This document shows positions 20,107 to 36,399 of a DNA stretch of 39,629 nucleotides, piece after piece. The DNA is from Phycisphaerales bacterium UBA1161 (GTDB lineage Bacteria > Planctomycetota > Phycisphaerae > Tepidisphaerales > Tepidisphaeraceae): positions 1 through 39,629 of the forward strand of contig DBZL01000019.1 in assembly GCA_002311745.1 (NCBI GenBank), written 5' to 3'. The notes beneath the pieces are model-generated. The model was not told where the DNA came from and did not search any database. It was given only the letters and a program-made list of their open reading frames with translations. Within the stretch, counting starts at the first letter, position 1; each line of letters starts with the position of its first letter. The position numbers were made by a program, and so were the translations under genes.

Positions 20107-20268
20107 CCCCATTACCCCACGCGGTATGTCGAGTCATCGAAAAACGGCGCGTGTGCCGTACCCGGCCGATGACTCCCCAGCTCGCATACTGCCCTTTTGG
20201 CGTCCCTAGGAAGAAATGAGGGCAAAAACTGGGAACGCTTCCAGCCGCTCGCTGGCCGCGCTCTTCCC

Positions 20269-20322: not shown

Positions 20323-20344
20323 ACCAACCCATTGCCAAGGTCGG

Positions 20345-21100
20345 TCACGCACTGCATCCGCCCCGCGCCTCGTTGTGGCGCCGGCGCAGCAGTAAGGTTC
20401 CTCCCGCTAAAGCCAACAGGGACAACGAGGCCGGTTCGGGAACCGCTATGGAGACATCATCCAGGGCGAAGTCATTCGGAAACGCGTCGAGGTCCGCATC
20501 TCGGATGGAGATGGTTGCCGTGGTGTTTGTTCCCGTGTTCCACGTTGCTCCGAACTGTTGCCAGTTGGGAACGCCGAATGCGACGGTGTATTGGGAACCG
20601 ACGCCAACGCCATTCACGAAGAATTGCAGGAGAGAGTGGACGCCGGTCTGGGTGTAGTCGTACGGATAGAGGTCCGAGGCCCAACCACTCAGTTGAAGGT
20701 TGGTGTTCGGTGTCAAGCCGGCGAATGCTTCTCGCCAGACATCACGGCCCGCTACGGTTGCGCCGTTGACCAGCAGAGAGAAATTGTCTGCCGACGGTGA
20801 ATGGTCATACCAAGCAGGCGGACTGAGAAAGGCCAGGTTCCATGCGTTGGGGTTGGCGCTGACGTTGTATTCACCTTCGCTGCTGTTGATCGTGGTGAAG
20901 GTGTAATCGCTCGCAAAGCCGGTATTGCCGAGGCTGAAATCGCCGTTGACAACCAGATTCTGCGCCGACAACCCTTGGGCAAGCGAGAAGAAACAAACCG
21001 GGGCCACGGCGGCGGCGAGAATGGCTGGCCGTTTTCGCCGCGTCAGTCCTCGTCCCGTGCACGTCGCCGCCAGCCGGGGGCAAATGGTAGGTATTAACAT
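20345..21100 (-). CDS. PEP-CTERM protein with jelly-roll-like domain (array member 3)
   Basis: 251 residues from ATG 21100 (AGGAGAG 3-4 nt upstream). An Arg-rich N-region precedes a signal peptide ending LAQGLSAQ. The mature part begins NLVVNGDFSLGNTGFASDY, typical of galactose-binding-like jelly-roll domains of exported proteins, and ends DFALDDVSIAVPEPASLSLL with LALAGGTLLLRRRHNEARGGCSA. The Arg cluster is followed by an extra HNEARGGCSA shared with member 4, so the 3' ends were copied together. The start NxxVNGDF..GN.GF.SDY is shared with member 9, suggesting a common domain ancestor. Confidence 0.82.
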   Translation of the reverse strand: MLIPTICPRLAATCTGRGLTRRKRPAILAAAVAPVCFFSLAQGLSAQNLVVNGDFSLGNTGFASDYTFTTINSSEGEYNVSANPNAWNLAFLSPPAWYDHSPSADNFSLLVNGATVAGRDVWREAFAGLTPNTNLQLSGWASDLYPYDYTQTGVHSLLQFFVNGVGVGSQYTVAFGVPNWQQFGATWNTGTNTTATISIRDADLDAFPNDFALDDVSIAVPEPASLSLLALAGGTLLLRRRHNEARGGCSA

Positions 21101-21113
21101 GATCTCTCCTTTC

Positions 21114-21128
21114 AGGTGAACAGTTTCC
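21114..21128 (-). promoter_or_regulatory. leader box (GGAAACTGTTCACCT variant)
   Basis: Variant of the box that precedes four other starts in the array by exactly 18 nt; here it is 14 nt upstream of ATG 21100. The rest of this leader (to about 21170) matches the one upstream of array member 10. Confidence 0.45.
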
Positions 21129-21214
21129 AGATTTCGTCACGCTGCGATGGCGCGCGGTTCAGCTCCGCCGCCGTTGGCGTCAGCGGCCGGCCGTTCGCCG
21201 GCCGTGCCATTCCC

Positions 21215-21268
21215 GGTCCTCAACGATCTCCGCCAGGAAGGGCGCGATCTCATTTCATGGAGCCTCGC
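21215..21268 (-). repeat. ECF-sigma-like relic, copy b
   Basis: Same element as at 20269-20322. The minus strand reads GEAP, stop, NEIAPFLAEIVEDRE. It lies between the leader of member 3 and the tail of member 4 and is preceded by the recurring CGGTTCAGCTCCGCCGCCG stretch. Confidence 0.6.
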
Positions 21269-21290
21269 CCGGACCCATCGTCAGGGTCGG

Positions 21291-22106
21291 TCATGCGCTG
21301 CATCCGCCCCGCGCCTCGTTGTGGCGCCGGCGGCGCAGCAGTAAGGTTCCTCCCGCTAAAGCCAACAGGGAAAACGAGGCCGGCTCGGGCACGGTCTCCG
21401 GCACGTTCAGGTCAACGGAGAATGCTCCGGTGTTGTTCTCCCAATCGAAACCGTCCATAGTGCCCAGATAGAGGCGGGTTGCGCCCGCGGGAACCGTGAA
21501 TTGCTGAACGACTTTCCCGCTGGTCATTCCGTCGCCGATGAAGAATGGCTGATACAGCAGCGGCGAGAGCGTTAGGAAATTAAGACCCAGGGCATTCGGA
21601 TGGCTCCCGGTCGGCGAGAAATCAAGCGGAGGGGGGGGCGTCGGGTCGCCCGTGTCCGGTCGGCCGCTGCCGAGAAATACGCCTACCAGCGAGTCGATCG
21701 GCGCGTACATGTCGGCGATCCCGTTTTCCGGCTGCGGCGAATCGCCCGGATTGCCGTCCAGATGCCCAAGGATGGAGTTGGGTGCGCCATCGGGCGGGTC
21801 GTTGGGGGTGTCACCGTCGTAATTGACCAAACCGGTCACATTCGAAAAGGTGATAACGTCGCCCGCCTGCGGCACCCAGGACGGCACCAGAACCGGTGAT
21901 TGAGCGGGCGCCACATCATCATACGACGCGGTCGATCCGTCAGGCATGCCCGCCAGATAGGGATCGGACGTACCGGGAACCACGATCCCAGGTATCGTGC
22001 CGGCCCACGCACTCAAGGCACCGGACAAAACCACACCCGCGATCAGCTTGGAATATTTGCAATAGCGCGCGAACGGGAACTTAGTAGAAACATGAATTGT
22101 GTCCAT
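21291..22106 (-). CDS. PEP-CTERM protein, LecA-like C-terminal domain (array member 4)
   Basis: 271 residues from ATG 22106 (GGGAG upstream). The signal peptide ends ALSAWAG. The middle is Pro/Asp-rich. The segment FTVPAGATRLYLGTMDG followed by DWENNTGAFSVDL resembles the end of LecA-type sugar-binding domains, as in members 1 and 10 but more distant. The sorting signal is VPEPASFSLLALAGGTLLL plus RRRRHNEARGGCSA, with the same post-Arg extension as member 3. Function is inferred as surface carbohydrate binding. Confidence 0.8.
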   Translation of the reverse strand: MDTIHVSTKFPFARYCKYSKLIAGVVLSGALSAWAGTIPGIVVPGTSDPYLAGMPDGSTASYDDVAPAQSPVLVPSWVPQAGDVITFSNVTGLVNYDGDTPNDPPDGAPNSILGHLDGNPGDSPQPENGIADMYAPIDSLVGVFLGSGRPDTGDPTPPPPLDFSPTGSHPNALGLNFLTLSPLLYQPFFIGDGMTSGKVVQQFTVPAGATRLYLGTMDGFDWENNTGAFSVDLNVPETVPEPASFSLLALAGGTLLLRRRRHNEARGGCSA

Positions 22107-22226
22107 CGCAATCTCCCTTCTTAAAGCCTTAGAGCGTGTCATGAACTTTGACGTTCACCCATCGCAAACGAAGAACGAAGCTGAGCCGCTTCCTGCGCGC
22201 CTCCCTCCCGCCGTTTTTATTCATGG

Positions 22227-23333
22227 TCATGGACTGGCAGTCTCTTGGGCCGCAGTAACAGGCCGACGCCGGCGCAGCAGGAAGGTTCCTCCCGCTAAAA
22301 CCAACAGGGAAAGCGTTCCCGGCTCGGGCACGCCGACCATATATAGGTACTGAACACTATCCATATTACCGGAGATCAGCGTAGGGGCACCGCTGCCGGT
22401 GTAGGCGTAGACATACCCGTTTACGTCACTGGCTTCGTATATTCCGGTACCGTAGTAAAGCGTGGTGTTACCGTCTGCAACCATTGCGGGGATATCGTTG
22501 GAGGCCATCAAAACGCTGTGCCAGGCTTCCGAGGAGTCCAGATATGCAAGCTTGCCGTTCTCGTAGCCCAGGTACAGCCGGTCTTGGAAGGGCTCCACTT
22601 GGTGGATGGACCATCCGTAGAAGTTATCGTTATCGTCAGAGAGAACAGCCGACCAAGTGACGCCATCGGTGGAACCGTAAAGGGACCCGTTTAACGCCGC
22701 ACCGTATAATTTGTTGTTGAACTCCGCGAAGTCATAAACGCAACTGCCGCCTTTCTCAGCGTCGAACTGGAGCTTGGTCCCGTCGAAATGTGCGAATTCA
22801 TCGGCATCATGTCCGCCCAGCTGGAGATACCCATACGAGGAGCTATACATCGCCCCGATTCCGTATTGGAAGACGGGATTGGCACTGTTATGGGGTACAA
22901 CAGTACCGACGTAGCTGAAGTTGTTCGCGCTCGCATCATAGCGATACAGCTTGCCCCCGTTGGCGAATGACTCGTTACCGGTGCCGGCATATAGCTGACC
23001 GTTGTAGACTGCGATGCGGACGTCCTGGTCCAAGTTGTCCCCAACGGCCGTCCATGAAGTGCCACCGTTGTACCGCCATACCCGGCCACTGGCCAAAGAA
23101 CTGCTAGATTCGGTGGAGGCGTACAGGCTCCCATCAAACTGGACAATGTTCAGGACCGCATAGTCGAGCCCGGGGGAGATGGCAGTCCAATTAGTCCCGC
23201 CCTGATAGGCGTAGACCTTACCCTGTCCCCCCTCAGATGTTCCTGCATAAAGCTGCTGTGCCGATGCCTCCGTAGATGCAAACGCAAGCATAGAGCCCAA
23301 CACAACCAAGCCGGCGAACAATGATCGCGTCAT
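22227..23333 (-). CDS. PEP-CTERM beta-propeller protein (array member 5)
   Basis: 368 residues from ATG 23333 (AAGGGA upstream). The signal peptide ends STEASAQ. Repeated blades share patterns such as LYAGTSEGGQGKVYAYQGG, SLYASTES, GRVWRYNGGTSWTAVGDN and LYGSTDGVTWSAV, indicating a beta-propeller of six or seven blades. The sorting signal is VPEPGTLSLLVLAGGTFLL plus RRRR with a short tail. An in-frame ATG 99 nt upstream (23432) also has a ribosome-binding site, but the intervening DNA carries the conserved leader box, so it is taken as untranslated. It is a recent tandem duplicate of member 6. Confidence 0.87.
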   Translation of the reverse strand: MTRSLFAGLVVLGSMLAFASTEASAQQLYAGTSEGGQGKVYAYQGGTNWTAISPGLDYAVLNIVQFDGSLYASTESSSSLASGRVWRYNGGTSWTAVGDNLDQDVRIAVYNGQLYAGTGNESFANGGKLYRYDASANNFSYVGTVVPHNSANPVFQYGIGAMYSSSYGYLQLGGHDADEFAHFDGTKLQFDAEKGGSCVYDFAEFNNKLYGAALNGSLYGSTDGVTWSAVLSDDNDNFYGWSIHQVEPFQDRLYLGYENGKLAYLDSSEAWHSVLMASNDIPAMVADGNTTLYYGTGIYEASDVNGYVYAYTGSGAPTLISGNMDSVQYLYMVGVPEPGTLSLLVLAGGTFLLRRRRPVTAAQETASP

Positions 23334-23350
23334 GGTTTTTCCCTTCGCGT

Positions 23351-23367
23351 GAGTTAAACAGTTTCCC
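23351..23367 (-). promoter_or_regulatory. leader box GGGAAACTGTTTAACTC
   Basis: Exact copy of the 17-nt box located 18 nt before the signal-peptide ATG of member 5. The same box and spacing occur before member 6, member 8 (two or three changes) and the pseudogene at 31556-31612. Confidence 0.55.
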
Positions 23368-23484
23368 GCCGTCGCCAACTCGACAACTCCAACATTCCGC
23401 AGCGAGATTCCTTTGGAAAATGGCGTGTTCATGGCTTGTGCTCCTTTCCCGTTGTGAAGGCCAAAAGCATCGCGCGCACGTTCG

Positions 23485-24543
23485 CTAATGCGCCGCGCGC
23501 CGCCGGCGCAGCAGCAAGGTTCCTCCCGCTAAAGCCAACAGGGAAAGCGTTCCCGGCTCGGGCACGCCGACCATATACAGGTACTGAACACTACCGATAT
23601 CGTCGGAGATCAGCGTAGGGTCGCCACTCCCCGTATAAGCGTAGACATACCCGTTTGTGCTGGCTTCGGCTTGTCCGGTACCGTAGTAAAGTGTGGTGTT
23701 ACCGTCTGCAAGCATTGCGGGGATATCCTTGGAGGCCTTCAAAACGCTGTGCCAGACTTCCGAAGAGTCCAGGTATGCAAGCTCCCCGTCTTCGTAGGCC
23801 AGGTACAACCGGTCTTGGAAGGGCGCCACTTGGTGGATGGACGCACCGTAATCGCCATTGTCGCTAGAGAGAACAGTTGACCAAGTGATGCCGTCGGTGG
23901 AACCGTAAAGGTGCCCAACATACGCCGCGGCGTATAATTTCTTATTGAACTCCGCGTAGTCATAAATGCAGCTGCCGCCCTCGGGATTCTCCTCAACGTC
24001 GAACGTAAGCTTGGTCCCGTCGAAATGTGCGAGATCATCGCACTCAATTCCGCCGAGCTGGAGATACCCATAGGAGGAGCTGTACATCGCCCCGATTCCG
24101 TACGTCATAAGGGGTACAGTACCCACATAACTGAAGTTTTTGGCGCTCGCATCATAGCGATACAGCTTGGGCGCGTTGCTAGCGGTGCCGGCATATAGCT
24201 GACCGTTGTAGACTGCCATGCGAACGTCCTGGTCCAAGTTGTCCGCAACGACCGTCCATGAAGTGCCGCCGTTGTACCGCCATACCCGGCCACTGGTTAA
24301 ATAGCTGCTAGATTTGGTGGAAGCGTAGAGGCTCCCATCAAACTGGACAATGCTCAGGACCGCATAGTCGAGCCCGGTGGCGGGGGAGATGGCAGTCCAT
24401 GTGGTCGCGCCCTGATAGGCGTAGACCTTACCCTGCCCATTTTCACATGTTCCTGCATAAAGCTGCTGTGCCGATGCCTCCGTAGATGCAAACGCAAGCA
24501 TAGAGCCCAACACAACCAAACCGGCGAACAATGATCGCGTCAT
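23485..24543 (-). CDS. PEP-CTERM beta-propeller protein (array member 6)
   Basis: 352 residues from ATG 24543 (GGGAG 6-7 nt upstream). It is closely similar to member 5 along its whole length, including the leader, with small in-frame gaps (for example the stretch GNESFANGG is missing). It has the same signal peptide and propeller blades; its tail is VPEPGTLSLLALAGGTLLL plus RRRRAAH. As with member 5, a longer start at 24642 is possible but covers the conserved leader. Surface-exposed propeller; ligand unknown. Confidence 0.87.
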   Translation of the reverse strand: MTRSLFAGLVVLGSMLAFASTEASAQQLYAGTCENGQGKVYAYQGATTWTAISPATGLDYAVLSIVQFDGSLYASTKSSSYLTSGRVWRYNGGTSWTVVADNLDQDVRMAVYNGQLYAGTASNAPKLYRYDASAKNFSYVGTVPLMTYGIGAMYSSSYGYLQLGGIECDDLAHFDGTKLTFDVEENPEGGSCIYDYAEFNKKLYAAAYVGHLYGSTDGITWSTVLSSDNGDYGASIHQVAPFQDRLYLAYEDGELAYLDSSEVWHSVLKASKDIPAMLADGNTTLYYGTGQAEASTNGYVYAYTGSGDPTLISDDIGSVQYLYMVGVPEPGTLSLLALAGGTLLLRRRRAAH

Positions 24544-24560
24544 GGTTTCTCCCTTCGCGC

Positions 24561-24577
24561 GAGTTAAACAGTTTCCC
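24561..24577 (-). promoter_or_regulatory. leader box GGGAAACTGTTTAACTC
   Basis: Identical to the box upstream of member 5 and again 18 nt from the start codon of member 6. Confidence 0.55.
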
Positions 24578-24768
24578 GCCGTCGCCAACTCGACAACTCC
24601 AACATTCCGCAGCGAGATTCCTTTGGAAAATGGCGTATTCATGGCTTGTGCTCCTTTTTCTTTTGCCTTCTCACGCTCAATTCGCCATGCAGCCGTCGCT
24701 CCTACCCCGGCGTCTTAATGTCACCAGGGCGCCCAGGACCAGCCGCGACAGCCTGGGGGGCATTAGCC

Positions 24769-24784
24769 ACGGAGCTTGCTCCGT
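24769..24784 (-). terminator. hairpin after array member 7
   Basis: ACGGAGC-TT-GCTCCGT forms a 7-bp perfect stem about 25 nt beyond the member 7 stop on the minus strand. No T-run follows, so it is a possible terminator only. The rest of 24643-24806 holds the AGCTCCGCC stretch recurring in the array and no gene. Confidence 0.4.
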
Positions 24785-24806
24785 CGTAGCAAGCGCTGCG
24801 CGCGGT

Positions 24807-26414
24807 TCAGCTCCGCCTCCGTCGGCGGACGAGCAATCCTGTGCCGCACAGCGCCAGCATCGCCGCCGCCGGCTCGGGGACGGCGCTGAACTTGTCCAAC
24901 ACGATCTCATTGGCGGGGTATGTGCTGCCGGTGCCGTAATGGACCATAAATGAGCCGGAGCCGTCGGTGGTCAGCAGCGTCCCACCGTTGGCGACGTCGA
25001 GGAAGCTGCCGCTGAGGGTGTACGGGGCATCGACTGCCAGCACCGTAAACTTATCGCTGCTGGAGATGGAGCCACCGGTCAGGGTCAGTTCCAAATTCCC
25101 CGCCAGCGACATGTTGCCATTAATCGACAGAGAGTCGTAATTCGTATTGCTGTGGATCTGGAACAACAGCGTGGATGGAGATGGAGCGGATGTTAATGTC
25201 ACGTTGCCGTTGATCGTACCTGTGCTGGCGAGGGAAGAACCCGGCAAGGAGCCGGTCAACGTGCCATCGCCAACGTTCAGACCATTCGGCGCGGTGATGC
25301 TACCGCTGCTGTGGACAGCAATCGTGCCGTGATTGGTGAAACTGCCGTCGATTTCCACTCCCGAATCTGAGCCGTCGGCCTTGACGGTGCCGGTGGCGCT
25401 GTTCGTGAAATTGGTGGAGGAGTGAATGGTCAGCGTTGCTTCACTGGTGGCTTCGACGAGGTTGTTGTTGATGAAGGTGCTGAGATAGACGTCCATGTTG
25501 TGGTCCGAGTCGTCGGCGTTGATCGTGCCGTTGTTGATCAGGGCGTCACCGGCGTTGTAGTTGTTGAATTGAGCTCCGCCGTGGACGAGGGTCGGAGCGA
25601 TCTTGGAGCCGAGGGTGAGGATCTGGGCGCCGCCGGAGCGCGGTCCGCTGGCACAGATGTTATAGACATCGCCGTTGGGGCCGCCGCGGTAAAAGTTGAT
25701 GTTGTCGATGTTCTGGCTGGCGCCGTCGAAATAGACACTGGCACTACTGCCCAGGTCCAGGTTGTGATTGTCGATCGTCAGGCCATTTAGCACGTACAGG
25801 TTGCCACTGTCGTTGACCTGCAGGTCTGCGGTTGCCGTGTTCGACGGGGTTGTACCGGTGACTCTCACGCCATCGAGCGTGCCATTGTTCACCTGGAAAC
25901 TGTACGGCCAGGATGCTGGGTTGCCCGTGCCCACTTCCGAGATCACCGCGCCCTTGATCGTTGCGCCGTATGAGCCGTTCGAGTCGTCGAGCAGGTAAGT
26001 TCCATGGGTGACGTTCAACGTGTTGGGGACGGCCAACGTAGGGGGGGAGAGGGTGAACGTACCACCCGTGTGGTCCAGAGTGGCGGAGGAAGAGTTGATC
26101 GTCAGACTGTCGACTGTGATGTCCGAATCGAGCGTGACGGTATAGGTGCCGGCGGCGCTAATGGATGCGGAGTAAGGAGCACCGGGGTTGCCGTTATCGG
26201 GATAGTTGGGGTTGCTGGACCATTTCGTCGCGTCGGTCCAGTTGCCGTCGACTGGATTCTGCCACGTCGCGGTGGTACCGGCGAGGGCGAGGGTGGCCAG
26301 CGAGCTGAACAAAACGGCCGCCGCTGCCGCCAGTGCAAAAGCCACCCGTCGGCGATCACGAGCACGCGCAATGTCACAACTGCACCCCAGAGGAGAATGT
26401 TTGAGTGCACGCAT
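24807..26414 (-). CDS. PEP-CTERM beta-helix/autotransporter-like adhesin (array member 7)
   Basis: 535 residues from ATG 26414 (GGGAGG 8 nt upstream). The signal peptide ends TLALAGTTATW. The opening WQNPVDGNWTDATKWSSNP is typical of exported proteins with autotransporter-like beta-helices. The body has repeated short strands (GTINADDSDHN, FINNNLVEATSEATLTI, NFTNSATGTV, NGTLDGV) rich in Asn, Thr, Ser and Gly. The sorting signal is VPEPAAAMLALCGTGLLV plus RRRRRS. Its 3' DNA differs from the near-identical tails of other members, so it probably has a separate origin or is an older resident. Confidence 0.85.
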   Translation of the reverse strand: MRALKHSPLGCSCDIARARDRRRVAFALAAAAAVLFSSLATLALAGTTATWQNPVDGNWTDATKWSSNPNYPDNGNPGAPYSASISAAGTYTVTLDSDITVDSLTINSSSATLDHTGGTFTLSPPTLAVPNTLNVTHGTYLLDDSNGSYGATIKGAVISEVGTGNPASWPYSFQVNNGTLDGVRVTGTTPSNTATADLQVNDSGNLYVLNGLTIDNHNLDLGSSASVYFDGASQNIDNINFYRGGPNGDVYNICASGPRSGGAQILTLGSKIAPTLVHGGAQFNNYNAGDALINNGTINADDSDHNMDVYLSTFINNNLVEATSEATLTIHSSTNFTNSATGTVKADGSDSGVEIDGSFTNHGTIAVHSSGSITAPNGLNVGDGTLTGSLPGSSLASTGTINGNVTLTSAPSPSTLLFQIHSNTNYDSLSINGNMSLAGNLELTLTGGSISSSDKFTVLAVDAPYTLSGSFLDVANGGTLLTTDGSGSFMVHYGTGSTYPANEIVLDKFSAVPEPAAAMLALCGTGLLVRRRRRS

Positions 26415-26464
26415 GATAATTCCTCCCAATTCGATAAAGGACCTAACCCATCTGTTCATCCGAA

Positions 26465-26830
26465 TTACCGAGCTCTTCCGGCGCCGGCGCAGCAGAAGAC
26501 CCCCGTGACGGCCAACTGCCGCACGGCCCTTTCCTGGGAATCCGCGATTTGGTCATCGACCAGCACCCAGCGTTGCCAAGGCCATCGGCGACGCAACTCC
26601 GCGGCCAACTGAGGGATGCTCATGTCGAGCAAGTCCCCGCCAACCAGCAGCAGGTCCACCTGGAGGACTTCAAGGAGTTCCAGTGCCGCTTGAGCGGTCT
26701 GACAGTGGATGATTTGCACGCGACCGCCGCGGTCCCTCAGATTCGGCAAGCCTATGGCGACGAATGTCGGTGTCTTTTCCCCGTCGCTGAATTCCTTGAC
26801 CAACTCGTCGATAACCCACGAAGCGAGCAT
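26465..26830 (-). CDS. receiver-like protein lacking the phospho-acceptor Asp
   Basis: 121 residues. The pattern IHCQTAQAALELLEVLQVDLL, VGGDLLDMSIPQLAAELRR, then RWVLVDDQ follows a response-regulator receiver fold, but the acceptor Asp position of the family reads Gly (LLVGGDLLDM) and the usual acidic pair in the first strand is not evident. Its last residues (CCAGAGRAR) are encoded by the same CGCCGGCGCAGCAG DNA that forms Arg-rich tails in neighbouring genes, read in another frame. It lies 247 bp downstream of a sigma-54 activator that lacks a receiver. The intervening 26831-27077 shows no gene. A partner role is a guess. Confidence 0.5.
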   Translation of the reverse strand: MLASWVIDELVKEFSDGEKTPTFVAIGLPNLRDRGGRVQIIHCQTAQAALELLEVLQVDLLLVGGDLLDMSIPQLAAELRRRWPWQRWVLVDDQIADSQERAVRQLAVTGVFCCAGAGRAR

Positions 26831-27077
26831 GACCTGCTATAACGAAGCATGTGCCAGTCGGGCGGCGCGGCGGTGAACGGCTGTAAATGGAAGGCGCAAA
26901 CGAGACTTAGGCTCGACGAGCAACCCACTGCCGCAACGGCGTGATCGCGGCCGGATTTACCAAGACGGCAAATGGGTGACGCCGACGGCGCATCCTAACA
27001 ACAGCCGCCACCGTCACTTGGAGAGACATTTGCCATTATGGCAAAATGGCAAGCTGTCCAGAACTCAAGAGTGGGGC

Positions 27078-28112: not shown

Positions 28113-28206
28113 GCGTTAAATATAATCCCGATTCAATTATTCGAGGCGGATCAGTTCCGCCGTGGTTGGCGTCGGCGGCCAGCCAGTCGCCGGCCGCGCC
28201 CTTCCC

Positions 28207-28259
28207 GACCCTTTCGATCTTCGCCGAGAAGGGCGCGATCTCATTTCATGGAGCTTCGC
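28207..28259 (-). repeat. ECF-sigma-like relic, copy c
   Basis: Same element as copies a and b, with one deleted base. It overlaps the end of member 8, whose last codons (GLGRSSMK, then TGA) are read from it in a different frame. Confidence 0.6.
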
Positions 28260-29680
28260 CCCAACCCATTGTCAGGGCTGGTCATGCGCTGCATCCGCTG
28301 GGGCGCCGCGTTGTGGCGCCGGCGCAGCAGAAGGGTTCCTCCCGCTAAAACCAACAGGGAAAGCGTACCCGGCTCGGGAACTAAGCTTAGGGCAAAGATG
28401 GTTCCGTCGCCGTAGGCGCCGCCGTCGCCGGTCACGCCATAGAGGGTGGAGCCATCGGCGGAGAGGGTCAGGGAGCCGCCGGGATAGCCGCCATCGCTGC
28501 CACCTGTGAACGAGTACAGAACCTTGTATGCCGTGGCGGGGTCATTTGAGGACAAATCGTACTGAAAGACTGTTCCATCGTTGTGCACGCCACCGGACGA
28601 GGTCATGCCGTAAAGGGTCGGGCGGCCGTCGGGGGAGAGAACGAGAACCAGCGAGTCGACGGGGACTCTCCCATGGGTCCAGTCGAACGAGTGCAGGATG
28701 CTCTCGGCCCCCGTGTCCAAGTTGTACTCAAAGATGGTTCCAACTCCATGGGCGCCGCCAGTGCTGGTCATGCCATAGACCATTGAGCCGGCCTGGATCA
28801 GGGAGCCGCAGGGAGTAGACCCGTCGTTCGGGCCGCCGGCAAAGGAGTACTTCAAAACAAAGGGGGTTTCCGAAGTGGACGTATCGTATTGGAAGATGGC
28901 TCCGGCGTTGTAATTACCACCTCCACCTATGCCGTACAACATCGAACTGTGCTGGCTCCGGGAGTCCTGGATCAGGGAGCCGTCCGTGGTGGGAGGGCCC
29001 CCGCCGTACGAGAAGTAATACAGATTGGTTACGGGATTGGGCGCGGAGGGGTTGAACTGGAAGATATTACCATCATTAACGGATCCAAACGGGCTGGGGC
29101 CTAGGGCGTCGCCGGTCGTGCCGTAAAAGGTGGAGTTGTACCCGGGCCGGTAGTCCTGGATCAGGGCGCCGTCGGGGGTTTGGCCCTCGGTTTCGTTTAC
29201 GAAGCGATGTAGGTAGGTATAGGTATTTGTGGAAGTGTCGTACTTAAAAAAGCTCCCCAGGGCATCGTCGTCCGAGCTCATGCCGTAAAGGATTGAGCCG
29301 GATTTGAGCAGAGAGCCGGTGGGTACACACGCCTCGTAATCTGTATTGTTGAAGGCATGTAGGACGGCTTCGGTATGGGATGAGGTGTCGTATTGGAAGA
29401 TGGTTCCCCAGCCGTTGTCAGTGGGGTCGCCCATGCCGCCGCCCCAACACGTCATGCCGTAGAGAACTGAGCCGGACAAGACGAGGGTGCCGCACGGAGT
29501 GACGCCGTCGGTGCGTGCTCCCCCGAACGAATAGAGCGTGGTGAAGTTGGCGGCTTTGGCGGCGGGGGCGATGGTGCTAATGGCCGCGGCCACGGCGAGA
29601 ATGGCTTGGCGTTTTTGCCGCCTCAGCCTTTGTTCCGTGCGCGTCGCGCCAGGAGGGTGGCAAATGGTAGGTATAGACAT
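28241..29680 (-). CDS. PEP-CTERM protein with GloVer repeats (array member 8)
   Basis: 479 residues from ATG 29680 (GGAGGAA 4 nt upstream). The signal peptide ends APAAKAANF. The body is about eight repeats of the GloVer type (TIGR03803-like): TLYSFGGARTDGVTPCGTLV, SVLYGMTCWGG, GTIFQYDTSS, recurring as SMVYGMTSTGGAHGVGTIFEY and similar, which fold as a propeller-like structure. The sorting signal is VPEPGTLSLLVLAGGTLLL plus RRRHN, and translation then runs about 20 residues further, into the sigma relic. That extension past the Arg cluster is unusual for a sorting signal. Confidence 0.87.
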   Translation of the reverse strand: MSIPTICHPPGATRTEQRLRRQKRQAILAVAAAISTIAPAAKAANFTTLYSFGGARTDGVTPCGTLVLSGSVLYGMTCWGGGMGDPTDNGWGTIFQYDTSSHTEAVLHAFNNTDYEACVPTGSLLKSGSILYGMSSDDDALGSFFKYDTSTNTYTYLHRFVNETEGQTPDGALIQDYRPGYNSTFYGTTGDALGPSPFGSVNDGNIFQFNPSAPNPVTNLYYFSYGGGPPTTDGSLIQDSRSQHSSMLYGIGGGGNYNAGAIFQYDTSTSETPFVLKYSFAGGPNDGSTPCGSLIQAGSMVYGMTSTGGAHGVGTIFEYNLDTGAESILHSFDWTHGRVPVDSLVLVLSPDGRPTLYGMTSSGGVHNDGTVFQYDLSSNDPATAYKVLYSFTGGSDGGYPGGSLTLSADGSTLYGVTGDGGAYGDGTIFALSLVPEPGTLSLLVLAGGTLLLRRRHNAAPQRMQRMTSPDNGLGRSSMK

Positions 29681-29888
29681 AGTTCCTCCGCCGGTATGAG
29701 TTACACGGTCTCCCGCCGGCATCTGCCCGCCCTTGATGGGCAGAGCCTCTGTTCTTTCCCCAAGCTCTTTGGCAAGTCCGCGGAAATGGCAACTGCCTCA
29801 TTTCCGCACCCGGTTAAGGCACGATGGTAGTGTTTGAGATGCGCTGGGAAAGTCGGCTATTCAGCCGTCAGCTACGCAGGGGACAGCG
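29627..29888. repeat. 260-bp direct repeat, copy 1
   Basis: Covers the first codons of member 8, its leader and the last nine codons (RCPLRS and stop) of a lost LuxR-type gene. It matches 31559-31820 with a constant offset of 1932 bp. Some stretches of over 80 bp are near identical, for example around 29731-29812. Beyond 29888 the two copies diverge abruptly. Confidence 0.8.
29698..29807 (-). promoter_or_regulatory. structured 5' leader, type B
   Basis: Contains the box (29698-29714, variant with GTGTAACTC) 18 nt before ATG 29680. It also holds a hairpin with stem GGCTCTGCCC/GGGCAGATGCC (29718-29747) and a second with 9-bp stem GCGGAAATG/CATTTCCGC (29780-29807). It is duplicated at 31630-31739. 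The architecture suggests a cis-acting RNA; no known riboswitch consensus is recognised. Confidence 0.5.
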
Positions 29889-29907
29889 ACCGGCGCGTGA
29901 CGAGGTG

Positions 29908-29961
29908 CGCATTTCCCCCGTGCCCGGCACTTCGCCCCTGCCAACGGGCCAGGCGACATAG
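29908..29961 (+). pseudogene. copied 3' end of the debranching-enzyme gene
   Basis: Reads VRISPVPGTSPLPTGQAT and TAG, against IRIPPMPSSSPLPTGQPK and TAG at 18185-18238. By hand count 45 of 54 bases match. As at the original site, a PEP-CTERM gene converges on it a few tens of bases away. Nothing of the rest of the enzyme is present. Confidence 0.7.
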
Positions 29962-29990
29962 CGATTTCCCTCCCCGAAGCGGTTTCACCT

Positions 29991-30650
29991 TCACCGCTTG
30001 CGGCGGCCGAGCAGGCCCATGCCGGCCAGCGCCAGCAAGGAGCAAGATGCAGGCTCGGGGACGGCCTCGAACGAGAAGTCGTCGAACGCTACGTCGCCCC
30101 CCACAAAGGCCTGATTCAACTCGTAAATCTGAATGAGAGCTTGCGTGGCCGACTCGGAATCCCAGGGGATATTGAACTGCTGCCACTGTCCATTTGGTGC
30201 CGGGACCGTCAGAAGCCCGCCTTGCTGCAGGCCGTTGATGTTCATTTGCAGCACGGCCGGAGAGGGGTCGATGCCGGTGCCGACATATTGGCCCCACGAT
30301 GCCATCCAGCCCGAAAATGCATATGGCGTAGCGGGTGCCACTTGGATCGTTTCAGACCAGGCCACCGGGGCGGGGGAGAAATCCGCCCCGTTGCACAGGA
30401 ACATCAGGCCATGGCCGGTGGTATGGTCCCCGAACGACGCGCCGGCGCCGTTGTCGTCGTGCGGGTTTTTGGCCACGTCGTACGTGAACTTGGGCGCGAG
30501 GTTTCCGGGAGAATACGGGTAGTCACTGTGGAACCCCACGTTTCCCTGCTCGAAATCGCCGTTGACGAGCAAATTGGCTTGTCCGAAAGCCAGCCCGCAA
30601 ACGAGAGCCGGGGCTAGTCCCAGGAAGAATATTTTGGTTGATCGCTTCAT
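29991..30650 (-). CDS. PEP-CTERM protein with jelly-roll-like domain (array member 9)
   Basis: 219 residues from ATG 30650 (AAGGA upstream). The signal peptide ends CGLAFGQ. The mature part starts ANLLVNGDFEQGNVGFHSDY, like member 3, and has ETIQVAPATPYAFSGWMASW and DVAFDDFSFEAVPEP, typical of carbohydrate-binding-like jelly rolls. The sorting signal VPEPASCSLLALAGMGLLG plus RRKR differs in DNA from the near-identical tails of its neighbours, so its 3' end was not recently copied from them. Confidence 0.83.
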   Translation of the reverse strand: MKRSTKIFFLGLAPALVCGLAFGQANLLVNGDFEQGNVGFHSDYPYSPGNLAPKFTYDVAKNPHDDNGAGASFGDHTTGHGLMFLCNGADFSPAPVAWSETIQVAPATPYAFSGWMASWGQYVGTGIDPSPAVLQMNINGLQQGGLLTVPAPNGQWQQFNIPWDSESATQALIQIYELNQAFVGGDVAFDDFSFEAVPEPASCSLLALAGMGLLGRRKR

Positions 30651-30713
30651 GTTCCTTGCTCCATTCGCGTTAAAGTTCTTGCATGTCATCCCCCTGCGAT
30701 TCCTGAACGTCGT

Positions 30714-31439
30714 TCAATTGGTGCGCCGCCGGCGCAGCAGCAAGGTTCCTCCCGCCAAAACCAACAGGGAAAGCGAGGCCGGCTCGGGCACAGACTCAGT
30801 AATCTGGATGCTCCATGAGTCGGAATTATCATAATAGTCGTCGTCATTGGCCCCAAGTTGCAGTTGCGTGCCTCCGGCCGGAATGGTAAATGTCCCCAAA
30901 TCGCCAATCTTAAACGGCGTGTCTACAATCTCCCCACTACTATTGGCGAATGTTCCCACCAACTCGCCACAATTAATGGGATACGTTGAAGGGTCCATGT
31001 AATAGCTTGGTGCAGGGGGGTAGGTATTTCCAGGCGGGTTGCCATATGTGGAATTGTTTAGCGGATTAGTTGGGTCGCCATCTGCATCGTAACGGTTGGG
31101 ACCGACATTAATCGCTACACCCCCACTGAGGTAACCAATTGTCAGGCTGTCTCCGGCAGAAAAAGGCAAGCCGCTTGCCGCGCTGATTACGGTCGGTGCC
31201 GCTTCTTCACCCAAGCAATACTGATAATTTGTATTAAGGCCGCCGTTTTTCCACGACCACGGCCCAGAATGACCATAGACCGTTACGGTAACACCGGCGT
31301 CCTGAGCCGATGCGATGCCGGCCAAGAAGCCGAGCACGACGGCAGCAGCCGCCGCGAGAACAACTGGGCGTTTTCGCCCCTTCGTCTTACGCGGCGTCTG
31401 AGATACAATAGGTGAATAATTGAATGAACGCGTGAACAT
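30714..31439 (-). CDS. PEP-CTERM protein with LecA/PA-IL-like lectin fold (array member 10)
   Basis: 241 residues from ATG 31439 (AAAGGA upstream). A basic N-region (PRKTKGRKR) precedes the signal peptide ending LAGIASAQ. The central domain shares long stretches with member 1: YYMDPSTYPI, GELVGTFANSSGEIVDTPF, GTFTIPAGGTQLQLGAND and YDNSDSWSIQI. The sorting signal is VPEPASLSLLVLAGGTLLL plus RRRRTN. The N-terminus differs from member 1, while the leader resembles that of member 3, so parts have been reassorted. It is likely to bind surface or matrix sugars, by inference. Confidence 0.85.
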   Translation of the reverse strand: MFTRSFNYSPIVSQTPRKTKGRKRPVVLAAAAAVVLGFLAGIASAQDAGVTVTVYGHSGPWSWKNGGLNTNYQYCLGEEAAPTVISAASGLPFSAGDSLTIGYLSGGVAINVGPNRYDADGDPTNPLNNSTYGNPPGNTYPPAPSYYMDPSTYPINCGELVGTFANSSGEIVDTPFKIGDLGTFTIPAGGTQLQLGANDDDYYDNSDSWSIQITESVPEPASLSLLVLAGGTLLLRRRRTN

Positions 31440-31555
31440 GATCTGTCCTTTCATGTGAAAAGTCTGCAAATTTCGTCACGCTGCAATTGCACACGGTTCA
31501 GCTCCGCCGCCGGCGCGGCGATGGGGTTCCTCCTTTCAGGCGGGTTGGACAATTC

Positions 31556-31612
31556 TCAAATTGCACCTGTCCGCGTTGTGCCAGGCCGGGGACAAAATGT
31601 AGGTGTAGACAT
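31556..31612 (-). pseudogene. N-terminal stub of a member-8-like gene (empty unit 1)
   Basis: ATG 31612 follows GGAGGAA and the full type B leader (box at 31630-31646, hairpins to 31739), but after MSTPTFCPRPGTTRTGAI a TGA stops the frame. About 40 bp further on, near 31500-31530, lie bases resembling a PEP-CTERM tail (CGCCGGCGCGGC then GGTTCCTCC). The body of the gene is missing. The remaining bases to 31440 form the type D leader of member 10. Confidence 0.65.
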
Positions 31613-31820
31613 AGTTCCTCCGCTGGTATGAGTTAAACAGTTTCCCGCCGGCATCTGCCCGCCGTTGATGGGCAGAGCCTCTGTTCTTTCCCCAAGCTCT
31701 TTGGCAAGTCCGCGGAAATGGCAACTGCCTCATTTCCGCACCCGGTCAACGCACGATGGTAGTTCTTTAGTGGCGTCGGTAAAGTCGGCTATTCAGCCGT
31801 CAGCTACGCAGGGGACAGCG
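31559..31820. repeat. 260-bp direct repeat, copy 2
   Basis: Partner of 29627-29888. Here the right end continues into the intact small LuxR gene at 31800, showing that this is the more complete arrangement: LuxR gene, structured leader, PEP-CTERM start. Confidence 0.8.
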
Positions 31821-32138
31821 CCCCGTGCTCTGGTCGCCGCAAATGGGGGGAAGCTTGCTGCCGGGCACGGCGGTGAGGCACAGGAACGCGCCGAACAGAA
31901 CCAGCATGAGTTCCGCTCGGTTGCGGACGGAGAGCTTGGCATAGAGGCGCTCTAGGTGGGTGTGGACGGTGTGGCGCGACATGCCCAGGTCCCGGGCGAT
32001 GGCGGATTCCTTGCGGTCCCGGAGCACGCCCTGGGCGATTTGCAGTTCCCTTTGCGAAAGCCTTAGGCGGACGCCCAGCCGCTTCCACGCCTTCGGGCTG
32101 ACGAAATACGCCAACGGAGATGTTTCGGTCGGCGTCAT
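31800..32138 (-). CDS. small stand-alone LuxR-type HTH regulator 1
   Basis: 112 residues from ATG 32138 (AAAGGA 7 nt upstream). Nearly the whole protein is a LuxR-type helix-turn-helix: LRLSQRELQIAQGVLRDRKE, SAIARDLGMSRHTVHTHLER and LYAKLSVRNRAELMLVLFG. No receiver, PAS or autoinducer domain is present. The C-terminal PGSKLPPICGDQSTGRCPLRS, with two Cys, is shared with regulator 2. It lies directly upstream of a type B leader, so it may control the adjoining surface-protein gene. Confidence 0.85.
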   Translation of the reverse strand: MTPTETSPLAYFVSPKAWKRLGVRLRLSQRELQIAQGVLRDRKESAIARDLGMSRHTVHTHLERLYAKLSVRNRAELMLVLFGAFLCLTAVPGSKLPPICGDQSTGRCPLRS

Positions 32139-32328
32139 GGTCGATCCTTTCGCGGGTACGCCCCAAAACTTACGCGCCCCGGTATGTGTTGGAAGATCAT
32201 ACAGCAAAAAGCTCCAAAAAGCCGGATCAGAATGCCCGCTGCAATGTTTGCACTGCGTTCGGTTCCCTCGCCGCCGGCGCTGTAGCCAGCGTCAATCCTC
32301 GGCGGCGGTTTTGCCGTCGCGCCCTTTC

Positions 32329-32382
32329 GGCCCTCAACTTAGCTCCTCCGAAAGGGCGCGTTCTCATTTCATGGAGTTTCGC
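32329..32382 (-). repeat. ECF-sigma-like relic, copy d
   Basis: Fourth copy of the relic (see 20269-20322), downstream of the degenerate tail of the 32384-32512 remnant. Confidence 0.55.
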
Positions 32383-32383
32383 C

Positions 32384-32512
32384 TCAACCCTTCTTGCAGG
32401 GTTGGTCATGCGCCGCATTCGCTGGGCGCCTGGTTGCGCCGGCGGCGCAGCAATCGAGTTCCTGCCGCCTATGAGGCGCGCAAACCGGATGGCAAATCGT
32501 ACGTGTGAACAT
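32384..32512 (-). pseudogene. PEP-CTERM start joined to a degenerate tail (empty unit 2)
   Basis: ATG 32512 after GGGAGGAA encodes MFTRTICHPVCAPHRRQ, like the N-termini of members 8 and 10. It runs directly into tail DNA (GGCAGGAACTCGATTGCTG against GGAGGAACCTTACTGCTG of intact tails), now out of frame, and ends at TGA 32384. The whole central domain and the PEP motif are gone. The hairpin core at 32556-32578 upstream matches the type A/B leaders. Confidence 0.6.
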
Positions 32513-33041
32513 GATTCCTCCCGTGCGCCGCGATCGATGATTCCTCAAATTGCAACCGCCCACGTTGGATGGACAGGGCCGCGGCTCGCTTTGGGCCGCG
32601 GCATGGCTGAGCCCCGCAAGCGGCGAGTGCGGCGTTTGCACACACGGGCAACGGCTCGTCGCTCGTTTGCGCAGTTCGTTGAACGAACGGGCTATCGATT
32701 CGTCGGTTGCGCAGGGGGCAGAATCCCGCGCTGTGCTGGCCGCAGATTGGGGGAAGCCCGCTGCCCGGTTGACCCGTCAGGCACAGGAACGTGCCGAACA
32801 ACAGCAGCATCAGTTCCGTGCGGTTGGTGACGCCGAGCTTGGCGTAGACGCGCTGCAAGTGCGTGTGCACGGTATGCGGTGAGATATCCAGGCTGCACGC
32901 GATGGCGGATTCGTTGCGGTCTTGAGACACGCCCCAAACGATCTGCAACTCCCGCGGCGTGAGCTGCAAGCGGATGGACAGACGTTGCCACGCCTGGCGC
33001 GTGAAAAACTGAGCCAAAAGGAACGGTGTATTCTGGAGCAT
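32469..33041 (-). CDS. small LuxR-type HTH regulator 2 with stop-loss extension
   Basis: 190 residues from ATG 33041 (GGGGAG upstream). Residues 1-115 are homologous to regulator 1: LQLTPRELQIVWGVSQDRNE, SAIACSLDISPHTVHTHLQR and VYAKLGVTNRTELMLLLFG, ending in FCPLRN. Where regulator 1 has its TGA, this gene has CGA, so translation runs on for about 76 residues through the former intergenic DNA and into the start of the remnant at 32384-32512 in another frame. The extension is therefore accidental in origin. Likely DNA-binding regulator without a sensory domain. Confidence 0.8.
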   Translation of the reverse strand: MLQNTPFLLAQFFTRQAWQRLSIRLQLTPRELQIVWGVSQDRNESAIACSLDISPHTVHTHLQRVYAKLGVTNRTELMLLLFGTFLCLTGQPGSGLPPICGQHSAGFCPLRNRRIDSPFVQRTAQTSDEPLPVCANAALAACGAQPCRGPKRAAALSIQRGRLQFEESSIAAHGRNHVHTYDLPSGLRAS

Positions 33042-33202
33042 GGTCCACTCCCCCGGGGAACCCCCGGAACTAATTTAGGACCAACAACTTTTTACGGCTT
33101 GACCCCCTACACTTCTCTACGCGATACAGGACGTTGCCAACCGCAGATCATTTCACCAAAATTCGGCGCGCCAGCGCGTCTTCTTCACAAACCCCCGTCG
33201 AT

Positions 33203-36106
33203 TCAGTTTCCACTTTTTTGTGTCGTCGGCCGCGTGGCGGGCTGCGTCATCGCGGCGTCGAGCTGCCCCAGCGTCATTGCCGGGTTCTCTTTCAACGACT
33301 GCGCGGCTTGCTGCACCTCGTGGATCGTCTTGAGCAAATCTGGACGGTCCGAGACAAGTTGCGTCAGGGACTTGGACATATCCACGTAATATTCGCCATC
33401 GCTGCGCTTGACGATGGCCATTTCCCAATCGCCCCGCTCTTGCAGTCCGCCGTCCGGCTCGGACACCCAGTCCGGGATCGCAAAACTCCTTTCGCACCAG
33501 TTCACAGAAAGCAGCGTCTCGTTCTTGATTACGGCGTCTTGCCCAAACCTGGCCACGGCTTCGGCTTGAAAGCTCATCGAAGCGATGATCCAGCGTGCGA
33601 CCAAATCCACGAGATTGTGGGGATCATCCTGATTGCAAATTAGACGATGCCGCACCGCCGCGATATCCCCCTTTTCCCCCGCCTCGAGCATGGCCCGCAC
33701 CGCACCCATGGGCGTTTTGGGATCGGCTGCAAGGGCTTCAAATCGCTTCAAGCGGTGGAACGTGCTCCAGACCCACATCGTCATCCCCTCGGAATAGCGC
33801 TTTTGCATCGCCTCGACGGCCGCAGCCAGCTGCGCCGCGGACACGTCCGCGGTGGGCGGCTTCACCGGCTGGGCCGCAAAACCGCTGAACGTCACCCACT
33901 GCCGCTTGCGCTTCCATACGTGGAACGACTTCACCTTGGACAGCGGCACGCGATCAAACGTCGGCGCGGGGTCGCTGCGCCGATCGGTCGCTATTTGACG
34001 AAGACTGTAGGTGGCCGGATCCACCTCCGTGCCGTCCTGCAAGACCGCCGTGATCGTGACCAGATTCTCCGAGCCGTTCCTGCCGAAAAACTCGACCCCA
34101 AAACCGTTGTCTCTGGCTTGGAAAGTTCCCCCCAGCCGGTACGTTCTTCCGTCCACCACGATCGAGTCGCCGTCCCTGATCTGTCCCACCTTCTGCCACG
34201 GCCCCACGGGTATCCCCACCTCGAACCTGCTCGGCTGATCCACGGGAAACGACGCAAGGATTTGATGTGGTCCGTGTCCCGGCAAATCGCCACCACGGTT
34301 GTCCGACGGATGCCCGGTGGGTGTGTTTGGGGTCCAGGCTTGCTCCGGCCCGCTCAGTGTCAGCGCCACCCAGAACGGCTGCTGTGGGCTGTACGTGGAC
34401 ATCAACGCCCAGGGCTCGTCTACCGCTTGGCCCTGAGCGTCCCACCAGCAGTACGGCCACTGGTCCCGGCGACACATGCCGATCGCCGCGACGATCTTTC
34501 CGTCTTCCAGCTTCTTCTCGAAGGCGGGCAGAACCTGCGACGCCTCGTGCTTGGCCGCTGCCGCCCACAACACCGCCTGATTTTTGACCTTCAGCCGACC
34601 CTCCGGACCGTTTTGGCACCACCAATCCACGTCGTTGTCGAGCAGAGGCCCGGGCACGAACAACTGCCACTGAGTCGTCTTGAACGCCTCCCACACCACC
34701 AGGTGATGGCAGGGGGTTTGCGACGGCGTCGTGAACGAGCCGATAAACGCCAGCGACTCGCCCGCCCCCAGTGGTCCGTCGTACAGGATTGACTGCCCGC
34801 TCGATTCCGGCCCGACCGTCCCCGTTTGCCGATCGATGAACTGAATCCTGACTTTCCGATAATTCAGCTTGAGGTGCACCTGATCGTCGCCCACGACCTT
34901 CATCTGGCCCGTGCCGTCGCCGCCGCCTTGGACCTCGACGTTGTTCTCCCCGCCCGGCGGATAATTGAAGTTCAAGGGCACAAGGTCGTCTGGAATCTGC
35001 GGACCGCCTCTGACCTGCGCGAAGTTCAGCCAAATCGCGACCGCATCAACGCCGCCAGCCTTCCGGGCCTGGTCCACGGCCCCGCGCAGGGCAGCGGCGT
35101 TGAATACAATCGCGTCGTAAACCTTGCTGCCGGTCTGAACCGGCGTGCTCTGAAGTTGCTCGATCACGTTCAGGCCGTTGTCATTGAGCAGCACGTCCCA
35201 TTGCGCAAGTTGAACCGTTTGTCGCAGCTCCGGCTGGGTGGAGGCTTCGGTGGTGGGGGTGACGGCGACAACGGCGGGCCGCGTAGGCGCGTTGGAGGTC
35301 GCAGCGATGCGGGCACCGCCGGTGCCGCCGGTATTCAATACAAGCAAGATTCCGCCCGTGGACGCGGCTGTTGCGCAGGCCGCGCCCGCGAGCAGAATTT
35401 TGTAGAGGATTGCCTTTCTTCCCATGGCGGCCAGCGCTTTTTTTGCCACCCCCGCGCTGGCCGCCACAGTTGTGCCGGATGCCAAGCTGGCGGCGGCGAT
35501 CGTATGGACAAGGCCCACCGGGGCGGCTTGCGTCGTATGCGCGGTCAATGCGCCGACCAACGCGCCGGCGCCAAGGACCAATCCTCTGCGGGCAAAGGCG
35601 CCGCGCAGCTTTTCCACCGCCCGCACCACCCGTTTCCTGGCGCCTTCCTCGCTAATCCCCAACGCCTGGCCGACTTCAGCCCAACTCATTCGCTGGTAAA
35701 ACCGCAACAACACCGCTTCCCGATCGCGCCCTCCCAGGTCCTCAACTGCCTCCTCCAGGAAGGGCGACATCTGTTCCCATGGAGCTTCGCCCGAGTTGGC
35801 TGACATTTCACTGGCCTTGGCCGCTTCCCTTTCGTGAAAGCGTCGCCGCGCCTCGGATCGTAAGAGCTTGGCCGATGCGTACCGCATAACCTGAAACAGC
35901 CATGCCGACAGGATCGTTCCTTTTCTCAGTTGCTTGCACGAGGCCAGGGCGATGAAGACCGCTTGGGTCACATCTTCGGCCCGGTGAGGATCGTGGGTGC
36001 GCCGCAGGGCGGCCGAATAGACCCAGTCAATGTGGCGGGCCACCAACGCGGCAAACGCGTCCTGCGAGCCCTGGCGATATTGCACCAATAACTCAAGGTC
36101 GCTCAT
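33203..36106 (-). CDS. membrane-tethered ECF sigma factor with very large C-terminal region
   Basis: 967 residues from ATG 36106. Residues 1-95 are sigma region 2 (LVARHIDWVYSAALRRT, AEDVTQAVFIALA) and about 118-172 region 4 (DREAVLLRFYQRMSWAEVG, ALGISEEGARKRVVRAVEKL). Small hydrophobic stretches and a transmembrane segment at about 231-257 follow. The remaining roughly 700 residues are unrecognised and, if the topology is single-pass, lie outside the cytoplasm. They contain long Trp-rich beta-type regions (QWPYCWWDAQG) and a helical end (AVEAMQKRYSEGMTMWVW). This suggests a sigma factor with its own sensor. The start overlaps the stop of the mini-ORF upstream by ATGA. The longer frame upstream is rejected as it reads that ORF. 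Confidence 0.85.
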   Translation of the reverse strand: MSDLELLVQYRQGSQDAFAALVARHIDWVYSAALRRTHDPHRAEDVTQAVFIALASCKQLRKGTILSAWLFQVMRYASAKLLRSEARRRFHEREAAKASEMSANSGEAPWEQMSPFLEEAVEDLGGRDREAVLLRFYQRMSWAEVGQALGISEEGARKRVVRAVEKLRGAFARRGLVLGAGALVGALTAHTTQAAPVGLVHTIAAASLASGTTVAASAGVAKKALAAMGRKAILYKILLAGAACATAASTGGILLVLNTGGTGGARIAATSNAPTRPAVVAVTPTTEASTQPELRQTVQLAQWDVLLNDNGLNVIEQLQSTPVQTGSKVYDAIVFNAAALRGAVDQARKAGGVDAVAIWLNFAQVRGGPQIPDDLVPLNFNYPPGGENNVEVQGGGDGTGQMKVVGDDQVHLKLNYRKVRIQFIDRQTGTVGPESSGQSILYDGPLGAGESLAFIGSFTTPSQTPCHHLVVWEAFKTTQWQLFVPGPLLDNDVDWWCQNGPEGRLKVKNQAVLWAAAAKHEASQVLPAFEKKLEDGKIVAAIGMCRRDQWPYCWWDAQGQAVDEPWALMSTYSPQQPFWVALTLSGPEQAWTPNTPTGHPSDNRGGDLPGHGPHQILASFPVDQPSRFEVGIPVGPWQKVGQIRDGDSIVVDGRTYRLGGTFQARDNGFGVEFFGRNGSENLVTITAVLQDGTEVDPATYSLRQIATDRRSDPAPTFDRVPLSKVKSFHVWKRKRQWVTFSGFAAQPVKPPTADVSAAQLAAAVEAMQKRYSEGMTMWVWSTFHRLKRFEALAADPKTPMGAVRAMLEAGEKGDIAAVRHRLICNQDDPHNLVDLVARWIIASMSFQAEAVARFGQDAVIKNETLLSVNWCERSFAIPDWVSEPDGGLQERGDWEMAIVKRSDGEYYVDMSKSLTQLVSDRPDLLKTIHEVQQAAQSLKENPAMTLGQLDAAMTQPATRPTTQKSGN

Positions 36107-36399
36107 GGCCTGTCCATGCACCCGTAAATACCCGCACCCGAAAGAACCGGGACATTTTTCCGGGATGCCCCTCCTCCTTTGAACGCGACATCGGACTTCG
36201 CCTGGCGCAGCAAAAAAGTTCCTCCCGCCAATGCCAAAAGCCAGAGGGTGGTGACGTTTTGCCCGTTGGGGGATGTGATGGCGGTGGCGATCAGGGTGAT
36301 CGCCACCGCCGCCGCGAGCACGCCTCGACAGCTTTGCCGCGATATCCTGCCTCTTGCCCTTGACCCCCGGGCGCAACGAGAGATTTCGCTCGTGAACAT
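36103..36399 (-). CDS. 98-residue mini PEP-CTERM-like protein coupled to the sigma factor (empty unit 3)
   Basis: From ATG 36399 (AAGGGG 7 nt upstream) the product has a basic N-terminus (RCARGSRARGRISRQ) and a hydrophobic stretch VLAAAVAITLIATAI. NVTTLW follows, then directly the array-type tail segment LLALAGGTFLLRQ and about 30 further residues. No central domain and no PEP motif are present, so it looks like a surface-protein gene with its middle deleted. Its TGA overlaps the sigma-factor ATG (ATGA), indicating translational coupling. It may be a small membrane protein working with the sigma factor or only a decayed leader ORF. Confidence 0.5.
   Translation of the reverse strand: MFTSEISRCARGSRARGRISRQSCRGVLAAAVAITLIATAITSPNGQNVTTLWLLALAGGTFLLRQAKSDVAFKGGGASRKNVPVLSGAGIYGCMDRP

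Follow-up and report, generated by a model that had tools for sequence, protein, structure and literature searches.

Sharing of sorting-signal DNA among neighbouring PEP-CTERM genes with unrelated cargo suggests recombination at the tail

The window analysed here is a whole contig (C69) of 39,629 bases from a draft genome of 2.93 Mb that is 79.5% complete in 79 contigs. Ten genes for PEP-CTERM surface proteins, U1 to U10, lie on its minus strand at 18296-31469; the initial annotation had placed the start of the array at 20345, but its first gene, U1, is found already at 18296. Each of the ten opens with what by inspection looks like a signal peptide and continues through a middle to a PEP-CTERM tail, and in all ten a VPEP motif, a hydrophobic stretch and an arginine-rich end can be read. 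The profile PF07589 has 33 matches in the genome at E 0.001, seven of them in the window, and among the eight array proteins scanned with TIGR02595 six score above the 16-bit cut-off, with U1 and U7 giving no match at E 0.001. Two exosortases (PF09721) are encoded in the genome, on contigs C78 (172 bits) and C9 (153.5 bits).

By BLAST and leader comparison, U1 (18296..18976) joins a native-type leader to an array-type tail and belongs to the cargo family of U10 (30714..31469), which in self-BLAST has the same tail as U1 and a different leader. Self-BLAST and tail codons also assign an array-type tail to U2 (19333..20112), the start region of which resembles that of a relic described below (E3), and to U4 (21291..22142), where a profile match agrees; the same type of tail is found by self-BLAST in U3 (20345..21100; TIGR02595, 24.3 bits). 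U5 (22227..23432) is a tandem duplicate of U6 (23485..24642) according to self-BLAST, and the outside relatives of the U6 cargo that were listed in the homologue comparison are without the array tail. By its tail codons U7 (24807..26459) does not carry the array-type tail, and its body is related to gene A of a second cluster, on contig C42. U8 (28241..29722) is a GloVer-repeat gene (TIGR03803, 141.4 bits) with the array tail and an upstream block in common with relic E1, and U9 (29991..30689) compares with U3 in its cargo family but has a different leader and a tail of the C42 type. A sigma-54 activator gene also lies within the array (27078-28112); its match to TIGR02915, the model for the PEP-CTERM-box response regulator, is below the cut-off (295 vs 502.6 bits), and other activator models match it as well. 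There is no excess of sigma-54 -24/-12 sites (22 found vs 22.35 expected) or of promoter-like sites (4 vs 5.7).

The tails of U1, U2, U3, U4, U5, U6, U8 and U10 are linked in all 28 pairs by self-BLAST of the window, and where the matches are confined to the tail, pairs extending into flank or body being set aside, they span 65-79 nt at 80-94% identity; U7 and U9 stand outside this group with 24-32 differences in 60 nt. The near-identity had been described as exceeding what protein constraint needs, and for these eight of the ten genes this is clearly the case. Over a 19-codon core, counted where the amino acids coincide and with expectations taken from codon usage in 14 genes of the window, the eight tails agree in 361 of 446 codons (0.809 vs 0.393 expected), a test that is not blind since the tails were picked by self-BLAST linkage, the gap being large nonetheless; none of 2000 codon-redrawing simulations reaches this agreement (maximum 0.529). 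The 28 other tails used for comparison, 26 from elsewhere in the genome together with U7 and U9, agree among themselves in 1394 of 3256 codons (0.428 vs 0.402 expected), and the array tails agree with them in 883 of 2173 (0.406). The leucine codon TTA, which makes up 1% of the leucine codons in the 14 window genes, occupies one position in six of the eight array tails.

In U3, U4, U8 and relic E2 the sharing continues past the stop codon into a non-coding 3′ flank of about 100-140 nt, located on the minus strand at 20241..20344 (U3), 21154..21290 (U4) and 28146..28240 (U8), and the BLAST matches of tail plus flank to U3 reach E values of 9.3e-71, 1.7e-54 and 5.5e-22. Elsewhere in the genome the same U3 query matched only tail-sized stretches, on contigs C77 and C35. 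The flank folds into a hairpin with z scores of -3.9 in U8, -3.2 in E2, -2.1 in U3 and -1.3 (weak) in U4, and 89% of the cells pair; two-sided pair changes are absent, and therefore covariation support is absent as well. The hairpin may represent a transcript end; sites resembling intrinsic terminators show no excess (17 vs 19.4).

The flank also resembles part of an ECF sigma factor gene (33203..36106, minus strand; TIGR02937, 74.4 bits). The segment at 35725-35793 is similar to the flanks of U4, U3 and E2 and weakly to that of U8 (scores of 65, 59, 50 and 38, with shuffle maxima of 32, 31, 34 and 29, respectively), and it folds no better than shuffled sequences. The simplest reading would be that an ancestral unit once lay beside a sigma gene of this kind, the position that E3 still has, and took a fragment of it along. 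The protein extends at its C-terminus by nearly 800 residues, and its Pfam matches are confined to the sigma regions.

Self-BLAST places a match of 100 nt (82%) between U3 and U8 inside the coding leader. The third and tenth members had been credited with a common leader, and U3 and U10 do match over 78 nt (87%), but most of this lies ahead of the start codon of U3, while their coding leaders are weakly alike (43 nt, 74%). U3 is a composite, having its coding leader in common with U8, its upstream region with U10 and its cargo family with U9. Most of the centres are unrelated, as originally stated, but U1 and U10, U5 and U6, and U3 and U9 are related to each other, and U4 is weakly related to U1 and U10 (score of 92 against a shuffle maximum of 71). 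U1 and U10 do have a domain in common (602 nt, 80%; 18303-18878 vs 30724-31323), but its designation as a lectin is unsupported because neither protein matches any Pfam family. These two genes share middle and tail under different leaders, and U3 and U9 have middles of one family but differ in both leader and tail, the U9 tail matching that of the C42 cluster over 71 nt (82%).

The duplicated genes mark the tail as a boundary. The homology of U5 and U6 covers 1202 nt (85.6%; 22264-23447), starting shortly before the start codon and stopping where the arginine cluster of the tail ends, and that of U1 and U10 stops at the same point of the tail. At a dS of about 0.25 (0.24 for U5/U6 and 0.27 for U1/U10) co-duplicated spacers should still align, yet the homology stops at the tail end. 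U3, U4, U8 and E2 present the reverse case, with tail and flank in common and different middles; as the duplicates end at the tail and these similarities begin there, the tail is a joint from both sides. The tract edges vary by pair and fall upstream of the start codon, in the signal peptide, at the tail start or at the tail end. In U5/U6 dS is lower early in the middle (0.13 and 0.10 over the first 120 codons) than later (0.26-0.37), a gradient that fits later conversion, if not uniquely, and positive selection on the middles is unsupported (dN/dS of 0.48 and 0.67). Counted from the outgroup on C77, the U1 tail has 22 differences and the U10 tail 14; with U1 the farther of the two, the U1/U10 tail comparison alone is no proof of exchange and may show a rate effect. 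That ends have recombined against middles, as proposed in the initial annotation, is nevertheless borne out by tail, flank and leader DNA lying under unrelated middles.

Three further loci on the minus strand consist of a leader or start region beside a tail, much as the first description of them as empty units had it. In E1 (31505..31613) self-BLAST and shuffle tests identify a U8-type leader joined to a tail remnant. E2 (32318..32512), found by BLAST and shuffle tests as was E3, has a short leader and a tail (together at 32428-32512) and the 3′ flank with its hairpin, and E3 (36199..36477), directly upstream of the sigma gene, has a U2-type start region and part of a tail without the PEP motif. 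The leader and tail parts of E1 and E2 and, in E3 (36199-36399), the tail part score above all 300 shuffles; the tail part of E1 is closest to the tail end of U7 (38) and scores lower against array-type tails (27-28). The leader of E3 fits that of U10 poorly, at a score reached by one of 300 shuffles, but between the start regions of E3 and U2 there is a match of 92 nt (73%, E 5e-6). E1 runs into a stop after 18 codons, the tail of E2 is out of frame, and E3 has an open frame from which the PEP motif is absent. Judged by these features the three seem to be products of failed joining rather than empty cassettes that are being maintained. The motif GGAGGAAC, present in tails and some ribosome-binding sites, occurs 13 times in the window where 1.16 occurrences are expected and might, at a guess, have seeded the empty joints; CCTGAAAGGAG, which E1 has in common with the stretch preceding U3, is present in two copies where 0.55 would be expected, a number equalled in 7 of 100 shuffles. 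Two small LuxR/GerE genes, alike at 72% over 306 nt, precede E1 and E2 (31800-32207 and 32469-33041), and the relic of a LuxR/GerE 3′ end at 29637-29891, 90% identical over 255 nt to 31569-31823, precedes U8.

Outside the genome, 285 homologues of U10, U6 and U3 were listed, those of U3 being the best 120 of 188. The middle of U3 agrees with P0167-P0171 in 115-119 of 172 residues and the tails in 8-12 of 32. For U1 and 12 outside relatives (P0003-P0014 of the 76 listed) the agreement is 94-111 of 162 residues in the middle and 8-14 of 24 in the tail, the leader of U1 agreeing with that of P0006 in 21 of 40; for U6 and P0079-P0089 (of 89 listed, some of them fragments) it is 127-168 of 300 in the middle and at most 8 of 26 in the tail. 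The tail LAGGT[LF] occurs in five of the 285, all of them window proteins or near-identical cluster representatives. The outside relatives of all three families thus have different tails or none, so that in the array a single local tail is attached to cargo families that originated separately.

Between the window and the cluster representatives of U10 (P0001) and U5 (P0078) a single residue differs in each case, with leader, middle and tail unchanged; both changes fall within the PEP motif (PEL and PDP), each on one short contig, and possibly represent an assembly error or a loss of sorting. Those of U6 and of the covered parts of U1 and U3 show no differences and may be the window's own proteins. 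For the flanking gene, a glycogen-debranching enzyme, the relatives in 61 genomes are at most 67% identical, over part of the length, and 55% identical at best where the match is nearly full-length, and in one further scan of genome contigs the best of nine loci reached 50%; relatives this distant make a syntenic comparison with sister genomes unfeasible. A search of 150 genomes with the tail and flank matched 12 others, at 40-43 bits only.

A second cluster in the same genome, on contig C42 (10899-22366), has four tails that agree in 62 of 83 codons. A block of about 1.2 kb (73%) there begins inside a tail and runs on, at two sites, into the following gene; the two copies of this gene, B and E, have leader and middle in common with different tails, and a leader remnant precedes gene D. 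On contigs C22 (4/19 codons), C44 (3/6), C19 (6/13) and C77 (4/8) the tails show no codon excess in what are few comparisons, and the agreement on C30 (7/10) is a hint only.

PF07589 was also sought in 13 genomes of relatives, five of which were chosen because neighbouring genes were visible among the matches listed; the tails analysed there are 91 of 193 matches (in genome G006, 12 of 16 listed). Among 13 neighbour pairs within 5 kb, six with related upstream sequence were set aside, and in the seven left, which come from four genomes, 67 of 99 tail codons are identical where 38.5 are expected. None of 20,000 draws of random distant pairs from the same genomes reaches this value. By pair the agreement is 11/14, 12/16, 12/14, 13/17, 7/12, 6/12 and 6/14, some pairs sharing a gene, and since the last three have little excess the pattern is not present in every neighbour pair.

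Several other explanations of the array can be weighed against these observations. PEP-CTERM is a conserved signal, and the similarity of the tails could be ascribed to protein constraint and codon bias; as the sole cause this is rejected by the tail codon test and is virtually untenable, the 28 other tails being near the codon-usage expectation, the rare TTA recurring and the sharing reaching non-coding flanks. Amino-acid constraint consequently does not explain the tails. Descent from one ancestor by tandem duplication, with leaders and tails conserved and middles diverged past recognition, is unlikely although duplications do happen here (U5/U6 and U1/U10). True duplicates at a dS of about 0.25 keep recognisable middles, the synonymous agreement of the tails is far above an expectation that purifying selection on the protein could account for, the common flanks of U3, U4 and U8 are non-coding, and the middles of U3, U1/U10 and U5/U6 have separate relatives elsewhere with other ends. 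The fragmented and incomplete draft, and the single short contig behind each of the U10 and U5 representatives, might point to an assembly chimaera of repeats, but the repeats that unrelated genes have in common are short, diverged stretches, and the clusters of U3, U6 and U1 are listed on 17, 32 and 32 contigs of up to 124,606, 124,606 and 101,398 bases, respectively, longer than that of the window, which makes such an artefact highly improbable.

The common ends, differing middles and three empty units had originally been read as a possible cassette-exchange system; a dedicated one would swap middles between fixed leader and tail sites and leave empty cassettes behind. This reading is unsupported and appears very unlikely. 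No tyrosine recombinase (PF00589) is found on the contig, and the two elsewhere in the genome are on C26 and C19, the latter (C19:28408) about 6 kb from the two PEP-CTERM genes whose tails are without codon excess. Reverse transcriptase (PF00078) gives no match in the 79.5% complete genome, where a diversity-generating retroelement would require one; these two profiles are the recombination machinery that the search covered. E1 and E2 are broken in frame, the differing tract edges define no single fixed site, and leader, middle and tail stand together unchanged in the representatives of U10 and U5 from the database.

The cluster has probably been shaped by birth and death of PEP-CTERM genes, with ectopic recombination at the DNA of the sorting signal producing chimaeras and selection preserving those that are in frame. 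Genes of different origin would have entered the cluster or arisen there by duplication, and leaders and tails would have been exchanged or grafted between neighbours by ordinary ectopic recombination, along a homologous route where tails of 65-79 nt or start regions of 80-100 nt match. Tails and leaders of such match length suffice for homologous exchange. The remaining joints could have formed by short-homology or illegitimate recombination. Selection would then keep those in-frame chimaeras of leader, cargo and tail that an exosortase can sort, and failed joints would decay into leader-tail remnants. We infer general recombination as the agent, together with the direction of grafting and the sorting of the products. 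A broader proposal, to which we give rather less than even credence, is that PEP-CTERM DNA is a general grafting module, in which a local tail, often with a leader, is repeatedly spliced onto incoming secreted genes; if so, foreign cargo becomes a sorted surface protein, and tails cluster by chromosomal neighbourhood and not by cargo ancestry.

Surface-protein arrays that evolve by birth and death have conserved ends around variable centres, recombine at these ends and leave pseudogene remnants. The PEP-CTERM array is similar in its conserved ends, variable centres and remnants, but it differs from such arrays in that neither an expression site nor a silent donor cassette nor phase variation has been seen in it. 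Haft et al. (2006; PMC1569441) describe PEP-CTERM/EpsH proteins as a signal peptide, variable cargo and a 24-residue tail, the latter a module appended to proteins with tail-less homologues, and report lineage-specific tail clades, species-specific expansion and frequent gene duplication and loss, and they count PEP-CTERM proteins with the fastest-evolving sets in the respective genomes. Their argument is made at the protein level, and the terms "recombin", "shuffl" and "gene conversion" are absent from the main text; the present array adds the sharing of tail DNA by neighbours, tracts with edges at the tail and leader-tail remnants. For ice-binding proteins, of which some end in a PEP motif, a proposal of domain shuffling has been made (PMC9957290), whereby transferred cargo would likewise be combined with other domains in a new host, but as presented there the case concerns domain architectures only, without DNA tracts or joints. 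An ice-binding protein of Nostoc, probably acquired from a planctomycete (PMC7783341), similarly has a PEP-CTERM tail on cargo whose previously reported relatives are signal-less; that account differs in treating a single gene, with at least 23 further annotated cases, and, as presented there, in bringing no DNA evidence on the source of the tail.

The titles and abstract openings listed in a limited literature search contained no DNA-level account of tail sharing by neighbours. We know of no explanation so far of the route by which new cargo gains a sorting tail. The window adds a view at the level of DNA, with the sorting signal as the place where neighbours of unrelated cargo recombine, and the sharing of tail DNA by neighbourhood offers a simple and testable route by which cargo could gain a tail, namely recombination at the sorting signal.

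The window also contains a short repeat outside the array, at 4763-4845, 5850-5930 and 5884-5963, the direct copies of which are 87% and the inverted ones 81% identical.
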